A DNA stretch of 64,000 nucleotides from Natrinema sp. CBA1119 (GTDB lineage: Archaea > Halobacteriota > Halobacteria > Halobacteriales > Natrialbaceae): NCBI RefSeq assembly GCF_002572525.1, contig NZ_PDBS01000001.1, forward strand, positions 2,542,001-2,606,000. The letters are read 5' to 3'. Made by a program: the position numbers and the translations under genes. The notes below the pieces were generated by a model that searched no databases, was not told the origin of the DNA, and was given only the letters and a program-made list of their open reading frames with translations. Each line of letters begins with the position of its first letter. Position 1 is the first letter of the stretch. This document shows positions 27,580 to 32,107 of this stretch, one piece after another.

Positions 27580-30111
27580 CTACGAAACTGATGCTGGTGG
27601 GCGACGTTCGGTGCCGTCGTCGGGGTCGGCGTTCGCGCTCGAGCGCAACGCGGCCGGATCGACCTCGCCGAGCAGCGCGTCGATCACGTCCGTCGCCGCG
27701 GGCGCGTACAGCGGCCGGTTGTCGTTGCCACAGCGATCGTCCATGAGACAGGCGGGACAGCCCTCGTCGCGCCCGCACGGGCAGTCAGCCATCAGGTTTC
27801 GCGCCCGGCGGGCGACCGCCTCGTACTCCTCGTAGATGCGCCGGGAAAAGCCCAAGCCGCCCTCGACCCCGTCGTAGATGAACCAGCCGCTCGCGTCGGT
27901 CCCATCGGGGAGACGATTGGTCGCGAGCCCGCCGAGATCCGCAGCGTCTACGGTCAACTCGAGTGGGGCGACGGCGATCATCGCGTGCTCGATGGCGTGG
28001 ATGCCGCCGAGGTAGCCGTGGAGTCGCGGCGGCAGCTCCTCGCACTCGTCGTTGTGATAGTCGCTGTGAGCCGCCGTCACCGCCCGTTCGACGTCGTCGG
28101 GCACTTCGGCCCAGCACAGTTGCGTTCGCATCTCGAGCGGTGGGACGCCGGTCTCGAGCCCCACCGCGAGAACGTCGCCGGTCCCGATCTCCCGTTTCGT
28201 GTAGATATCGTGGTGGACCGTGACGGTGCCGTACCCCCAGTTGAGCCGGAAGGGCCCGACGTCGCGGGACTCGCGGACCTCGGTGTCGTAGATCGTCGTC
28301 CGGCGCTGGGACTGGGTGTAGTAGTCCACATCGACCGGCTCGAGCGTGACGGATGGCTGGGGTCGATCCTCCCGCAGTTCGACGACCTCGTACTGGTCGC
28401 CCCGATACAGCACCGTCGCGCCCTCGTGGTAGTCCCGATACGCGCGCGCTTTGCCGATGGCCTGGTGGTCGAACGTCTCCTCGCCGGCCAGCCGGACCTC
28501 GAAGGCGTTTCCGCCGGAGGCGTACAGATTGATCTCGCTCTGCGGTCGGTCGCGGTGGGCGTACGTAACGCCGCCCGCGAGCGATCCCTCGAAATTCCCC
28601 GTCCGTCGGCCGTACTCGACGGCTCGTTCCAGTCGCTCGATCCCGCCGAAGCGGTCCGCGTCCTCGCGGCGCAACGGCAGTTCCTGGGCGGCACAGCGCA
28701 GATGCTGGAGGTAGACCGGGTTGTTCCCGAGGTCGACGACCGCGCTCTCGGGTTCCTCCTCGAGGAGGTACTCCGGATGGCGCAGGATGTACTGGTCCAG
28801 CGTCGCGTGGCTGGGGACGAACACGGAGAGCGCCTCGCGCTCGTCGCGTCCCGAGCGGCCGAGGCGCTGCCAGAACGACTGTCGGGAGCCGGGATACCCC
28901 ATGAGGATCGTGCCGTCGATCCCGCCGACGTCGATGCCGACCTCGAGTGCGCTGGTCGTCGCGACGCCGTCGAGCTCCCCGCTTTTGAGTCGGTTCTCGG
29001 TCCCCCGCCGGGACCGCTTTCCGTGACCCGCGTTGTACGCCGCGAGGTCGGCGGTGCCCCGGTAGGGCAAGGTGGGGTTCTCGAGGTACTCCCGCGCGCG
29101 CCCGACAGCCAATTCGGTCTGTTTGCGGGAGTCACAGAACAACAGCGAGGGGACGCCGTGATAGCAGCAGTGCGCCCAGACCTCGGGGGCCTCGACGGTT
29201 GCTGGACGTTTGCTCGGCGACCACTCAGTATCACTATCACCGCTCCCGTCTTCGTACCCGCTCCCACCGCCGTCCGTCGGCGGGTCCCAGAACGCGAGGT
29301 GGCGGCGACCGCTGGGCGAGCCGTCCTCGTCGATCACCGTCGCCGGCTCCCCGGTCAGCGCGCGGGCGTGTTCGGCCGGGTTGCCGATCGTCGCGGTCGT
29401 CAGCACGTACTGCGGGTCGCCGCCGTACCAGTCGATCAGCCGTCGGGTCCGCCGGAGGATCCAGGCGGCGTGCATCCCGCTGATTCCCGTCCACGAGTGC
29501 GCCTCGTCGATCACGATCAGTTCGCACTCCGCGTGGAACCCGGCCCAGCGGTGGTGTCCCTCGAGGTACTGGTTCAGTCCGGCAAAATTCGTGATGACGA
29601 CGTTCGCCTCCTCGCGGATGCGGGCCTTCGCCTCGCGGTTCGTGTCGCCGTCGTAGACGCCGACGGTGACGTCCAGCCCGAGCGAATCGAAGAGATCGTT
29701 GAGCTCCCGCTCCTGGTCGCGGCTGAGCGCCTTCGTCGGATAGACGAGCAACGCGCGCACGTTCGGATTCTCCCGGAAGCGTCGCGCGACGTGTAATCCG
29801 TAGACGTAGGTCTTCCCGGAGGACGTCGAGGTCGCGACGCAGACGTTCTCGCCGTCGGCCAGCGCCTCGAGCGCCGCGGCCTGGTGGCTCCAGGGATCGA
29901 CCTCGAGCGTCGCCGCGAGGTCTGCGGGCAACACCTCGCGGGCCGGGACGTGACTGGCCGGCTCGGCCGGCAACGTGAACCGTTCGTGAAGCTGTCCGTG
30001 GTAGCGACGCGACGGAAAGGTGTCCCGTAGCTCCGCGCCGGTCAGCGCGAGGCCGTCCGCTCCGGTACTGTCCTGCCCGTCGGTCAGATCGTCTATGTCG
30101 TCGGTTGGCAT
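27580..30111 (-). CDS. DEAD/DEAH-box helicase with C-terminal Cys cluster (MrfA/Hrq1-like)
   Basis: The 843-aa SF2 helicase shows Q-like region WSHQAAALEAL (74-84), Walker A TSSGKT (96-101), DEAH (202-205), motif III TTATIGNP, and a second RecA domain with ATTSALEVGIDVGGIDG and QRLGRSGRDE. The C-terminal part is the DUF1998-type region ending in a five-Cys cluster (C777, C779, C785, C788, C794). This architecture is that of Bacillus MrfA and yeast Hrq1, which act on cross-linked DNA. It lies 2 bp after a RNase H-fold exonuclease gene, the same partnership as mrfA-mrfB. The repair role is inferred. Confidence 0.88.
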   Translation of the reverse strand: MPTDDIDDLTDGQDSTGADGLALTGAELRDTFPSRRYHGQLHERFTLPAEPASHVPAREVLPADLAATLEVDPWSHQAAALEALADGENVCVATSTSSGKTYVYGLHVARRFRENPNVRALLVYPTKALSRDQERELNDLFDSLGLDVTVGVYDGDTNREAKARIREEANVVITNFAGLNQYLEGHHRWAGFHAECELIVIDEAHSWTGISGMHAAWILRRTRRLIDWYGGDPQYVLTTATIGNPAEHARALTGEPATVIDEDGSPSGRRHLAFWDPPTDGGGSGYEDGSGDSDTEWSPSKRPATVEAPEVWAHCCYHGVPSLLFCDSRKQTELAVGRAREYLENPTLPYRGTADLAAYNAGHGKRSRRGTENRLKSGELDGVATTSALEVGIDVGGIDGTILMGYPGSRQSFWQRLGRSGRDEREALSVFVPSHATLDQYILRHPEYLLEEEPESAVVDLGNNPVYLQHLRCAAQELPLRREDADRFGGIERLERAVEYGRRTGNFEGSLAGGVTYAHRDRPQSEINLYASGGNAFEVRLAGEETFDHQAIGKARAYRDYHEGATVLYRGDQYEVVELREDRPQPSVTLEPVDVDYYTQSQRRTTIYDTEVRESRDVGPFRLNWGYGTVTVHHDIYTKREIGTGDVLAVGLETGVPPLEMRTQLCWAEVPDDVERAVTAAHSDYHNDECEELPPRLHGYLGGIHAIEHAMIAVAPLELTVDAADLGGLATNRLPDGTDASGWFIYDGVEGGLGFSRRIYEEYEAVARRARNLMADCPCGRDEGCPACLMDDRCGNDNRPLYAPAATDVIDALLGEVDPAALRSSANADPDDGTERRPPASVS

Positions 30112-30113
30112 AG

Positions 30114-31634
30114 TTAAAAGTCGGCGAGGCCGGTCTGCGTCGAGTCGTCGGCCGATCGTCCACGTCCCGTTTCTGTCTGCGTTTCGCCCGTCTCGAGCGG
30201 GGCCGCCGCGATCGCCTCGGCGACCGCGGCCAGTTCCCGGACGTCCGCCTCGCAGTACTCTCGGGCGGCCGCCCAGTCGATAGCGGTTCCAGTCGAGGCC
30301 GCCGTCGCGGCCGCGCGGTCCTCGGAGCCGGCACCCGAGGGCCGTTCGCTCTCGAGCAGCCGTCGAATCCGCTCCGCGAGGCTCTTCCCGTCGAGGGCTG
30401 CCGCGGCTCCCGACCGGTCACAGCCCAGCGCCTCGGCCACGTCCTCGAGTCGGTTCGTTCGGCCGGGCAACACGGCGTGTTCGCGTCGCACCGCCCAGTC
30501 GTAGAGATCGTACGTGAAAACGTCTTCCCGCCAGTAGTCGCGGAACTCGGGCACGTCGCGGGCGATGAACCGCTCGAGGTGTTTGTAGTCGAACGCGTGG
30601 CCGTTCCACGCGACGAGCGACGGCGCGTCGTACTCGGCGGCCAGCCACGAGACGAACTCGCGGGTCGTCGCGCCCGGCTCGTCGCGGGACGGATCGGTGT
30701 CGACGAAGTCCACGTACGCGTCGCGTTGGGGATCGTAGACCCCGATCAACCAGATGATCGTCGGCTGTAGCCCGTCGGTTTCGATGTCGACGAACAGCGG
30801 CGTCGCGGTCTCGGCCGCCGGCGGGACCGGCTCGTCGGTGCGGCGCACGACACGTGACTCCGCGAGCGAGCGCGCGCTGTGGCGGATCGCTCGAGCCGTC
30901 GACGCGCCGATCCCGTCGATCGAGCGGAGGTCCGCCTCGGTGGTCTCGGCGACGGCCGCGCGCGTCTCGTACCCGTTCGTTCGGAGCCGATCGGCGGTCG
31001 TGGGCCCGACGTTGGCAAGCGCTCGCAGCCCGAACCGGTCGGCCGGGGCCGACGAGACGGCCACCGAACCGCGTCGGTCGCAGGTGAGACAGGCGATCTC
31101 GGCCGCGCCGGAGCGACGCAGCGGGGCGACTCCCCGAACCGGTATCTCGACTTGCTCCCCGTCGACGGTCGGCTCCCAGACGTGATCGTAACTCGCCTCG
31201 AGTGCCCCGGTCAGCACGGTCGCCGTCCCGCTCGCTCGCGATTGGTAGCGGGCGAGCGGCTCGCGGCCGGCGAGGGTCGCCTCCAGCATGACGGCGTCGG
31301 TCGTCGGCTCGATATCGTCGCAGACGACGTAGTCTGCGACCGGCGTCCCGTCGTCTTCGGGACGGTCCTCGAGCAGCGACGCCGACCCCGCGAAGACGAA
31401 CGTGATACCGGCGACCGTCTCCGTCCGAACGTCGGCGGGGCCGCCGGCGGAGACGACCGGCCCGTCAAACGCGCGATGGAGGCGGCTGACGACGCGGACG
31501 TCCGACGACTCGCGAACGACGTAGACGAGGTCCGGATCGAAGTACTCGAGCGCGTCACGCAGCGCTGTGTCGTCCAGATCGGCGACGGCGTCACAGCGCA
31601 GCGCCAGCAGGTCGGCACCGTCCTCGTCGGACAT
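30114..31634 (-). CDS. RNase H-fold 3'-5' exonuclease with helix-hairpin-helix motifs (MrfB/YprB-like)
   Basis: The 506-aa protein has an N-terminal domain (1-180) of unknown fold ending near a CLTC pair, two helix-hairpin-helix motifs (about 203-222 and 236-256, LANVGPTTADRL and IDGIGASTARAI), and a DEDD exonuclease domain: D283 and E285 (FVDIETDGL), D349 (WNGHAFDYKHLE) and D464 (YCEADVREL). It ends in a Ser/Thr-rich tail. ATG 31634 is preferred; an upstream extension lacks support. YprB/MrfB is the exonuclease partner of MrfA in mitomycin repair, and here both are in one operon with a 2-bp gap. Confidence 0.87.
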   Translation of the reverse strand: MSDEDGADLLALRCDAVADLDDTALRDALEYFDPDLVYVVRESSDVRVVSRLHRAFDGPVVSAGGPADVRTETVAGITFVFAGSASLLEDRPEDDGTPVADYVVCDDIEPTTDAVMLEATLAGREPLARYQSRASGTATVLTGALEASYDHVWEPTVDGEQVEIPVRGVAPLRRSGAAEIACLTCDRRGSVAVSSAPADRFGLRALANVGPTTADRLRTNGYETRAAVAETTEADLRSIDGIGASTARAIRHSARSLAESRVVRRTDEPVPPAAETATPLFVDIETDGLQPTIIWLIGVYDPQRDAYVDFVDTDPSRDEPGATTREFVSWLAAEYDAPSLVAWNGHAFDYKHLERFIARDVPEFRDYWREDVFTYDLYDWAVRREHAVLPGRTNRLEDVAEALGCDRSGAAAALDGKSLAERIRRLLESERPSGAGSEDRAAATAASTGTAIDWAAAREYCEADVRELAAVAEAIAAAPLETGETQTETGRGRSADDSTQTGLADF

Positions 31635-31692
31635 AGAAGGGGAATACGAGCGAGCGATGATAAGCGTTCGCGGACGTAGCACACCAGCACTT

Positions 31693-31698
31693 TTTATA
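31693..31698 (+). promoter_or_regulatory. TATA element of the 31724 membrane protein gene
   Basis: TTTATA is 26-31 nt before ATG 31724, within a TTTTTATAC context that predicts leaderless transcription and fixes the start. Confidence 0.6.
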
Positions 31699-31723: not shown

Positions 31724-32107
31724 ATGAGAAGTATGGGAGAAAAAACGAACCGAATCAGAATTATTGTGAGCGCAGTAGTACTTTCCGTCGTCGGGTACGT
31801 AACCTTCCCGCTGGGTGACGTGTGGCGGTGGATTTCACTGCTTCCCACAAGGGGAGACATTGGAGTCTTTGCGGTAATCACGATCGTGATTGGACTGATC
31901 GGTTTCGGGATAACGACAGCAAGTAGTATTCGTCTTTCCGAATTCGCTATCGGTGGCGTTCTCGCCTATGTTTTCGGGATGGTAGTACTGAGTTTCGTTA
32001 TCCCAGAAATGTTGATGGCATATTTTGTATACGGATTTGTACTCGTTTGCGCTCTCCTTGGGTCTGTTATTGCGACAGTAATCGGGAACTGGTCGACGTC
32101 GCCATAG
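31724..32107 (+). CDS. Small four-helix membrane protein of unknown function
   Basis: The 127-aa protein has a short basic N-terminus and four hydrophobic helices (about 11-25, 43-64, 70-93, 96-119). Its codons are notably less G/C-rich than those of its neighbours, so it may be a recent arrival. It is divergent from the exonuclease gene. I do not recognise a family. Confidence 0.65.
   Translation: MRSMGEKTNRIRIIVSAVVLSVVGYVTFPLGDVWRWISLLPTRGDIGVFAVITIVIGLIGFGITTASSIRLSEFAIGGVLAYVFGMVVLSFVIPEMLMAYFVYGFVLVCALLGSVIATVIGNWSTSP

Follow-up and report, generated by a model that had tools for sequence, protein, structure and literature searches.

A helicase–exonuclease gene pair of haloarchaea that looks like a distinct variant of the MrfAB-type repair machine

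The window, i.e. the 64,000 nucleotides from Natrinema sp. CBA1119 analysed here, harbours adjacent genes for an MrfA/YprA-type helicase and a DEDDy exonuclease, which together are probably a DNA-repair module of haloarchaea, a distant relative of MrfAB that acts as a PCNA-tethered 3'-5' exonuclease–helicase. The pair looks like a distinct variant of the MrfAB-type repair machine because the exonuclease uses another catalytic residue, begins with a degenerate domain resembling a phosphoesterase and has a tail predicted to attach it to the replication clamp. No experiments on any member of the haloarchaeal pair were found in the literature. The features are as follows.

27580..30111, reverse strand: helicase gene, DUF1998/MZB (MrfA/YprA-type) SF2 helicase of 843 aa, from Pfam and PDB profile matches
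27745..27993, reverse strand: MZB (DUF1998) zinc-binding domain, residues 707-789, with C777, C779, C785 and C788 invariant
28846..29148, reverse strand: RecA2/Helicase_C domain, residues 322-422, from Pfam and the homologue alignment
29380..29889, reverse strand: RecA1/DEAD domain, residues 75-244, with Walker A TSSGKT at 96-101 and DEAH at 202-205
30112..30113, no strand: 2 bp spacer from exonuclease stop to helicase start, the operon junction, from the sequence
30114..31634, reverse strand: exonuclease gene, 506 aa, with MPE-like (predicted), HHH and DEDDy exonuclease domains and a PIP-like tail
30117..30137, reverse strand: PIP-box-like motif QTGLADF, residues 500-506, C-terminal, QxxLxx[FW] in 78/78 homologues
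30195..30812, reverse strand: DEDDy exonuclease domain, residues 275-480, with D283, E285, D349, Y460 and D464
30858..31031, reverse strand: helix-hairpin-helix (HHH) DNA-binding domain, residues 202-259, from HHH_5 (3.7e-8) and RadA/eL32 HHH matches
31035..31634, reverse strand: N-terminal domain, residues 1-200, predicted to adopt a calcineurin-like metallophosphoesterase (MPE) fold, without conserved metal ligands
31691..31698, reverse strand: TATA-like element TATAAAAA, located about 60 nt before the start codon (ATG) of the exonuclease gene, seen in the sequence itself

Both ORFs lie next to each other with 2 bp between them, just as an earlier note on this DNA had described; the exonuclease gene comes first and the helicase lies downstream, and the TATA-like element is a possible operon promoter. 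The helicase directly follows the exonuclease in 79/79 assessable loci, the 80th (L097) being left out of the count since it ends near a contig edge. Intergenic gaps at these 79 loci are usually -11 to +82 bp, with one of 802 bp, and large negative tabulated gaps are an artefact of over-long ORF starts. The exonuclease is found in 151 of 392 genomes of the order (39 %), every one of which (151/151) also carries a close helicase (E <= 1e-128). Genomes without the exonuclease either lack a DUF1998 helicase or have only a distantly related one (E > 1e-115), except for G391, the sole genome with a close helicase but no exonuclease match, where a frameshifted exonuclease copy sits beside the helicase. 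Considering the 79/79 adjacency and the joint presence across the 392 genomes, the pairing is not due to chance. The exonuclease and helicase trees are congruent as well (20 of 28 splits in common, whereas none of 500 label shuffles gave more than three; the distances correlate with r 0.94), i.e. the genes are both adjacent and co-inherited, as in an operon. Three Natrinema genomes possess neither gene and keep the flanking genes, with a spacer of about 110-280 bp. Neighbourhood comparison revealed no universal third gene conserved across the clade, and a small membrane ORF adjoining the pair (31724-32107) was rejected as a module member, being missing from loci L044-L058 and from pair-less loci.

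The helicase shows the DEAD, Helicase_C, WHD_HRQ1 and MZB/DUF1998 (E 7e-19) domains in Pfam searches, and its best PDB match is Bacillus subtilis MrfA/YprA (6znp, E 3e-105). With DEAD, Helicase_C and a C-terminal MZB/DUF1998 domain carrying the four cysteines, it has the make-up of an MrfA/YprA helicase, and the motifs and zinc cysteines are invariant across eight haloarchaeal homologues. In the unrooted helicase tree, the paired haloarchaeal helicases form their own clade (support 100/100). The unrooted analyses disfavoured their grouping with MrfA alone (AU p 0.026, in the set without methanogens) and did not reject their grouping with the MrfA-type helicases of methanogens (AU p 0.54). An Lhr-rooted tree was discarded, because the ORF chosen for it, a reverse-strand frame, was questionable and its branch very long. 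The helicases that occur alone (SftH/YprA-only), i.e. the unpaired haloarchaeal clade and Sulfolobus acidocaldarius SftH, share the architecture with the paired helicase (33 % identity to the unpaired haloarchaeal clade) but have no neighbouring exonuclease and form a separate clade (100/100).

The exonuclease matches RNase_H_2 (1e-16) besides HHH_5 in Pfam. Its five catalytic residues are intact in 78/78 homologues, and Tyr (Y460) stands in place of the DEDDh His in all of them, making the enzyme DEDDy and not DEDDh. The modelled domain matches the PolB proofreading fold (Z 15.5, rmsd 2.8 over 167 aa), so that conserved residues and predicted fold both indicate a DnaQ/DEDD exonuclease core. 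Family B DNA polymerases share this active site and fold, but the haloarchaeal exonuclease is free-standing and lacks a polymerase domain. Compared with MrfB (PDB 8un9), there is a weak match only (E 0.04-0.09), whereas the profile aligns with that of methanogen MrfB over both HHH and exonuclease domains (hhalign probability 98, E ~1e-14, i.e. 3.5e-14), which suggests an only remote homologue of MrfB. No C-terminal TPR was seen, the exonuclease domain being followed in the predicted model by just a ~25-residue low-confidence tail.

In B. subtilis, MrfA and MrfB likewise combine a DUF1998/MZB SF2 helicase with a DEDD-superfamily 3'-5' exonuclease in one operon. The Bacillus order is mrfA then mrfB, and in haloarchaea it is reversed. 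The catalytic His of MrfB is H258, i.e. DEDDh (PMC11194089), whereas the haloarchaeal exonuclease is DEDDy, harbours HHH and MPE-like domains and a PIP-like tail, and lacks the TPR. Thus, of the MrfAB-like label given in the earlier note, the helicase domains, the strict linkage, the congruent trees and the remote homology to methanogen MrfB hold up, and the likeness to MrfB is lost in the catalytic residue, domain content and gene order. The survey across archaea that the same note had suggested found the linkage strict in the order and canonical DEDDh pairs in methanogen-type archaea. In the latter (YprAB, loci L206-L214), the exonuclease gene also lies directly upstream of the DUF1998 helicase gene and encodes HHH and exonuclease domains, but these enzymes are DEDDh (H-N-x-x-D), have an unrelated N-terminus of ~70-110 aa and no PIP tail. 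Archaea therefore have two or more types of DUF1998-helicase/exonuclease pair, i.e. DEDDh in methanogen types and DEDDy with PIP in haloarchaea, which makes it unsafe to transfer 'mitomycin C (MMC) repair' from Bacillus.

The N-terminal ~200 aa gave no match in Pfam and nothing useful in PDB profile searches, in line with the unassigned domain of ~180 residues reported previously. Structure prediction, as had been proposed, now assigns it a fold: the AF2 model (pLDDT 88.7) resembles Vps29, YfcE-like proteins, Mre11, YmdB and the Pol delta/zeta B-subunits in Foldseek (6.9e-5), and superimposes on 2hy1 with Z 10.7 and rmsd 4.0 over 177 aa, as for an MPE fold. The conserved Asp/His/Asn metal ligands of MPEs were not found among 74 N-domain sequences, in which D27, D35, D106 and D113 alone are Asp/His/Asn/Glu/Cys in >=60 %, with no His or Asn. 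The domain is thus predicted to be a degenerate calcineurin-like MPE, differing from Mre11/SbcD, Vps29 and the Pol delta/zeta B-subunits in lacking conserved metal ligands and any sequence match. A RecB-like domain as in TM0106/TIGR03491 was rejected, since the only hint, a weak match, came from the HHH/RNase H portion, and modelling gave an MPE-like fold instead.

The protein ends in QxxLxx[FW] in 78/78 complete homologues, versus 2/640 other ORFs, and the linker before it is poorly conserved (top-residue fraction 0.31 vs 0.76 within the motif). The motif fits the archaeal PIP consensus (PMC4929162, PMC7776575), i.e. the usually terminal QXXhXXaa, with most homologues stopping after one aromatic residue, not two. 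We infer from this pattern that the tail should hook the enzyme onto the PCNA clamp. In Haloferax volcanii, NreA acts in PIP-dependent MMC repair (PMC4929162).

A repair module of this kind would probably work as follows. The MrfA-type helicase would load on single-stranded or damaged DNA and unwind it, presumably translocating 3'-5' as MrfA does, and the exonuclease would strip the strand 3'-5' using the PolB-like active site, with the HHH domain guiding it and the PIP box holding it on PCNA. Gap filling by a PCNA-bound polymerase could follow at once. The MPE-like domain would serve as a scaffold that probably binds the helicase or DNA, and not as a nuclease; the two proteins would form a physical complex.

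As for the lesion, MMC is only a guess. The earlier note had taken the pairing to suggest UvrABC-independent repair of interstrand or bulky adducts. In its strict form, an MrfAB orthologue with the mitomycin-specific, UvrABC-independent pathway of Bacillus, this reading has the MrfA domain architecture (E 3e-105) and the permitted clade with methanogen helicases on its side. It is nevertheless quite improbable, given an exonuclease that is DEDDy, lacks the TPR and barely matches MrfB, while one methanogen exonuclease tested matched MrfB at 2e-22 with the catalytic His present. Moreover, MrfA is equally similar to unpaired (30-35 % identity) and paired (26-34 %) haloarchaeal helicases. The B. 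subtilis studies indicate monoadducts and intrastrand crosslinks as the lesions (PMC11194089), Hfx. volcanii repairs MMC damage via UvrABC with NreA (PMC4929162), and UvrA is present in the window genome. The S. acidocaldarius SftH mutant is mildly cisplatin-sensitive and strongly H2O2-sensitive (PMC10003305), so by analogy the lesion may not be MMC-type. Primer or flap processing by a DEDD, HHH and PIP enzyme, as RNA or replication housekeeping instead of lesion repair, would agree with the RNase_H_2 membership, the PolB-like fold and a PIP motif that Fen1 and RNase H2 also have (PMC4929162). Still, it is very improbable, as most haloarchaea lack the exonuclease, it is always accompanied by the helicase and the whole pair is missing from close relatives.

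Gene neighbourhoods bear on a defence role, in which the pair, like other YprA-family systems such as DISARM, Druantia and ARMADA, would attack invading replication intermediates by unwinding and degradation, or benefit plasmids. The distribution is patchy, with 36 plasmid records; Halobacterium salinarum R1, for instance, has the two genes (OE_RS12870/OE_RS12865) on PHS3. Plasmid islands that are almost identical between several families carry PLD nuclease, ThiF/JAB, a second DUF1998 helicase, RecB-helicase, Piwi, integrase and ParA genes, the pair lies near SAVED and ThiF in one setting and a restriction endonuclease in another, and a Cas4-like gene sits immediately upstream in one subclade. 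Since plasmid copies have Mre11-Rad50, nucleases (RecB-like and PLD) or defence genes next to them, such a role is possible, yet we consider it unlikely. YprA defence, defined by BrxA-like/ZBM helicase inserts and system-specific partner genes, was judged by length and PADLOC: the exonuclease matched no PADLOC model, the helicase matches were partial and far below defence full length, and 843 aa hardly suffice for the large inserts that defence YprA helicases carry (PMC12458937). Nor is any third gene conserved clade-wide, the plasmid island also carries Mre11-Rad50, and chromosomal synteny with ThyA spans many Natrialbaceae genera, divergent ThyA lying ~1-2.3 kb from the pair in 22 Natrialbaceae-type loci. 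A photolyase gene lies near the pair in L069, and on plasmids Mre11-Rad50 and an AddA-like helicase-nuclease are neighbours; like ThyA, these genes favour the repair reading. Viral contigs gave sixteen short partial matches to the exonuclease, and phages gave two matches to the helicase that were weak and partial; the pair is seen in neither. Rather unlikely, too, is a mobile, PCNA-coupled combination of repair and defence, exchanged between haloarchaeal plasmids and chromosomes. In it, an inactive Mre11/DP1-like domain would take the place of the usual MrfB N-terminus and direct the exonuclease to replication intermediates that are stalled or foreign; such a module appears undescribed.

Against the proposed clamp-tethered repair module speaks that the pair occurs in just 39 % of the sampled genomes and often on plasmids, unlike a core repair enzyme. 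If true, the link of an MrfAB-like unit to the PCNA clamp would explain how strand removal is coupled to gap filling.

The close spacing of the two genes described in the earlier note was found as reported, i.e. 2 bp apart in the window sequence, in the order exonuclease then helicase, and Pfam identified the helicase and HHH exonuclease domains:

30114-31634, minus strand: exonuclease, 506 aa (Pfam HHH_5 and RNase_H_2)
27580-30111, minus strand: helicase, 843 aa (Pfam DEAD, Helicase_C, WHD_HRQ1 and MZB/DUF1998)

Their adjacency is not due to chance, and the module is strictly linked. Among 84,980 species genomes scanned for the exonuclease, 115 relatives were found and 80 kept, all of them haloarchaeal; a close helicase lies directly 3' in 79/79 assessable loci, the exonuclease always coming first. 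Within the order, 151 of 392 genomes (49 of 95 genera) harbour the exonuclease and all 151 also a helicase with E <= 1e-128; exonuclease-free genomes contain at best a distant DUF1998 helicase (E > 1e-115). The sole exception among the 392 is genome G391:

L184:5521-7187 (locus of a relative): broken exonuclease gene of G391, split over two frames and adjoining an intact helicase

Judging by this case, the helicase may outlast loss of the exonuclease for a time. In three pair-less Natrinema genomes, the gene for a protein of ~130 aa adjoins the thioredoxin gene (gap about 110-280 bp); since the flanking genes are adjacent there, exonuclease and helicase occur, or are missing, as a unit. The trees of the two proteins have 20 of 28 splits in common (at most three in 500 label shuffles), and their distances correlate with r 0.94; this congruence comes partly from the common history of the species and partly from transfer of both genes together. 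The window also has a small hydrophobic ORF (31724-32107, plus strand) that separates the thioredoxin gene from the pair; it is absent from this site in the relatives checked and looks like a local insertion.

The earlier note had likened the pair to Bacillus MrfAB. This stands for the linkage of the genes and for the helicase, whose closest solved structure is B. subtilis MrfA (E 3e-105) and whose motifs and four MZB cysteines show no variation across eight haloarchaeal homologues, but the exonuclease is no standard MrfB. While MrfB is a DEDDh enzyme with His258 and a TPR domain (PMC11194089), the haloarchaeal protein is DEDDy, with D283, E285, D349, Y460 and D464 kept in 78/78 homologues, and no TPR was found after its exonuclease domain. 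The predicted domain best matches family B polymerase proofreading domains (Z 15.5, rmsd 2.8, 167 residues); compared directly, the exonuclease is marginally similar to MrfB (E 0.04-0.09).

In nine of 25 other Halobacteriota genomes surveyed, an RNase_H_2 protein of 320-413 aa is encoded directly upstream of a DUF1998 helicase. These are canonical archaeal YprAB pairs: the gene order is the same, but the exonucleases carry His (H-N-x-x-D) in place of the haloarchaeal Tyr, and the single one tested matches MrfB at 2e-22. Profile comparison relates them to the haloarchaeal exonuclease over HHH and exonuclease (prob 98, E 3.5e-14). Paired and unpaired haloarchaeal helicases each form a clade (both 100/100). 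In an unrooted tree with methanogens, a 96/96 split separates the unpaired clades from the side on which the paired haloarchaeal clade stands beside MrfA, an actinobacterial helicase and the helicases paired in methanogens. Constraining paired haloarchaeal and methanogen paired helicases together was not rejected (AU p 0.54); uniting paired and unpaired haloarchaeal helicases was disfavoured (p 0.058). Considering this placement and the AU results, the simplest view is that the paired haloarchaeal module would be a fast-evolving descendant of archaeal YprAB, a descent that falls short of proof because the tree is unrooted, the branch long and the bacterial sampling limited to two sequences.

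The genome of the window itself encodes a further, short RNase_H_2 protein (L143:7731-8483; on C1 at about 69.7-70.5 kb) of 250 aa, matched with 150 bits. It appears to be DEDDy (EYNRAD), has no helicase nearby and may be a relative of archaeal MrfB that has become separated. In Halobacterium salinarum R1, the pair on plasmid PHS3 is followed directly by the gene for a second RNase H/PolB-exonuclease-like protein, of 214 aa (L185:12654-13298).

Behind a poorly conserved linker, a PIP-like motif that would bind PCNA, QxxLxx[FW], closes the C-terminus in 78/78 complete exonuclease homologues. Of 640 other ORFs, two share this ending, including at least one photolyase; no such tail was found in the methanogen exonucleases compared. 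Haloarchaeal PIP boxes read QxxLxxFx (PMC7776575), the archaeal consensus peptide is KTTQSTLDSFFK, and in Hfx. volcanii NreA loss of the terminal PIP motif abolishes MMC repair (both PMC4929162). ORFs adjoining the pair in two relatives (L069:10244-11926, a photolyase by Pfam, and L072:10263-11891) end in a PIP-like QTDLTRF.

Pfam and PDB profile searches with the N-terminal domain gave no useful match. Residues 1-200 were modelled by AlphaFold2 from 74 sequences (pLDDT 88.7), and the model matched calcineurin-like metallophosphoesterases, i.e. Vps29, YfcE-like proteins, Mre11, YmdB and DNA polymerase delta/zeta B-subunits; with Rv0805 it gave Z 10.7 and rmsd 4.0 across 177 residues, and although moderate Z values are common, nearly all of the upper match list is this one fold. 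Since no His or Asn is conserved at 60%, the modelled metallophosphoesterase-like domain should be catalytically dead, presumably comparable to Vps29 or the polymerase B-subunits.

The window copy is chromosomal, near glnA, and across the 22 loci of a Natrialbaceae-type group a divergent thymidylate synthase gene adjoins the pair. The pair also occurs on 36 haloarchaeal plasmid records; in the plasmid clade nearest the window copy it lies within near-identical islands, together with genes for an AddA-like UvrD/PD-(D/E)XK protein, a PLD protein, ThiF, a second DUF1998 helicase and Mre11-Rad50. An example is L196:260-19644 on a Natronosalvus amylolyticus plasmid (also L036, L053, L058, L186 and L189-L191); the islands come from several haloarchaeal families, their shared genes have mostly 85-98% identity, and Mre11-Rad50 is present in some islands only. 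In one subclade, the gene directly upstream of the pair is weakly Cas4-like (PADLOC E 5e-4, ~280-316 aa):

L184:4472-5422: Cas4-like gene
L040:11088-12038: Cas4-like gene
L114, L117, L119, L120 and L123: further loci with this gene

Plasmid and chromosomal neighbours point to DNA repair or defence, without separating the two. Bell et al. related the YprA-only and MrfAB branches to repair and other branches to defence (PMC12458937), and the closest known phenotype is that of S. acidocaldarius delta-sftH, which is sensitive to H2O2 and cisplatin (PMC10003305). Among open-licence papers, we found none that describes the haloarchaeal exonuclease, and none on its MPE-like domain or PIP-like tail. 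Taken together, the module is a real, new variant of the MrfAB kind, and its putative role is most likely repair.
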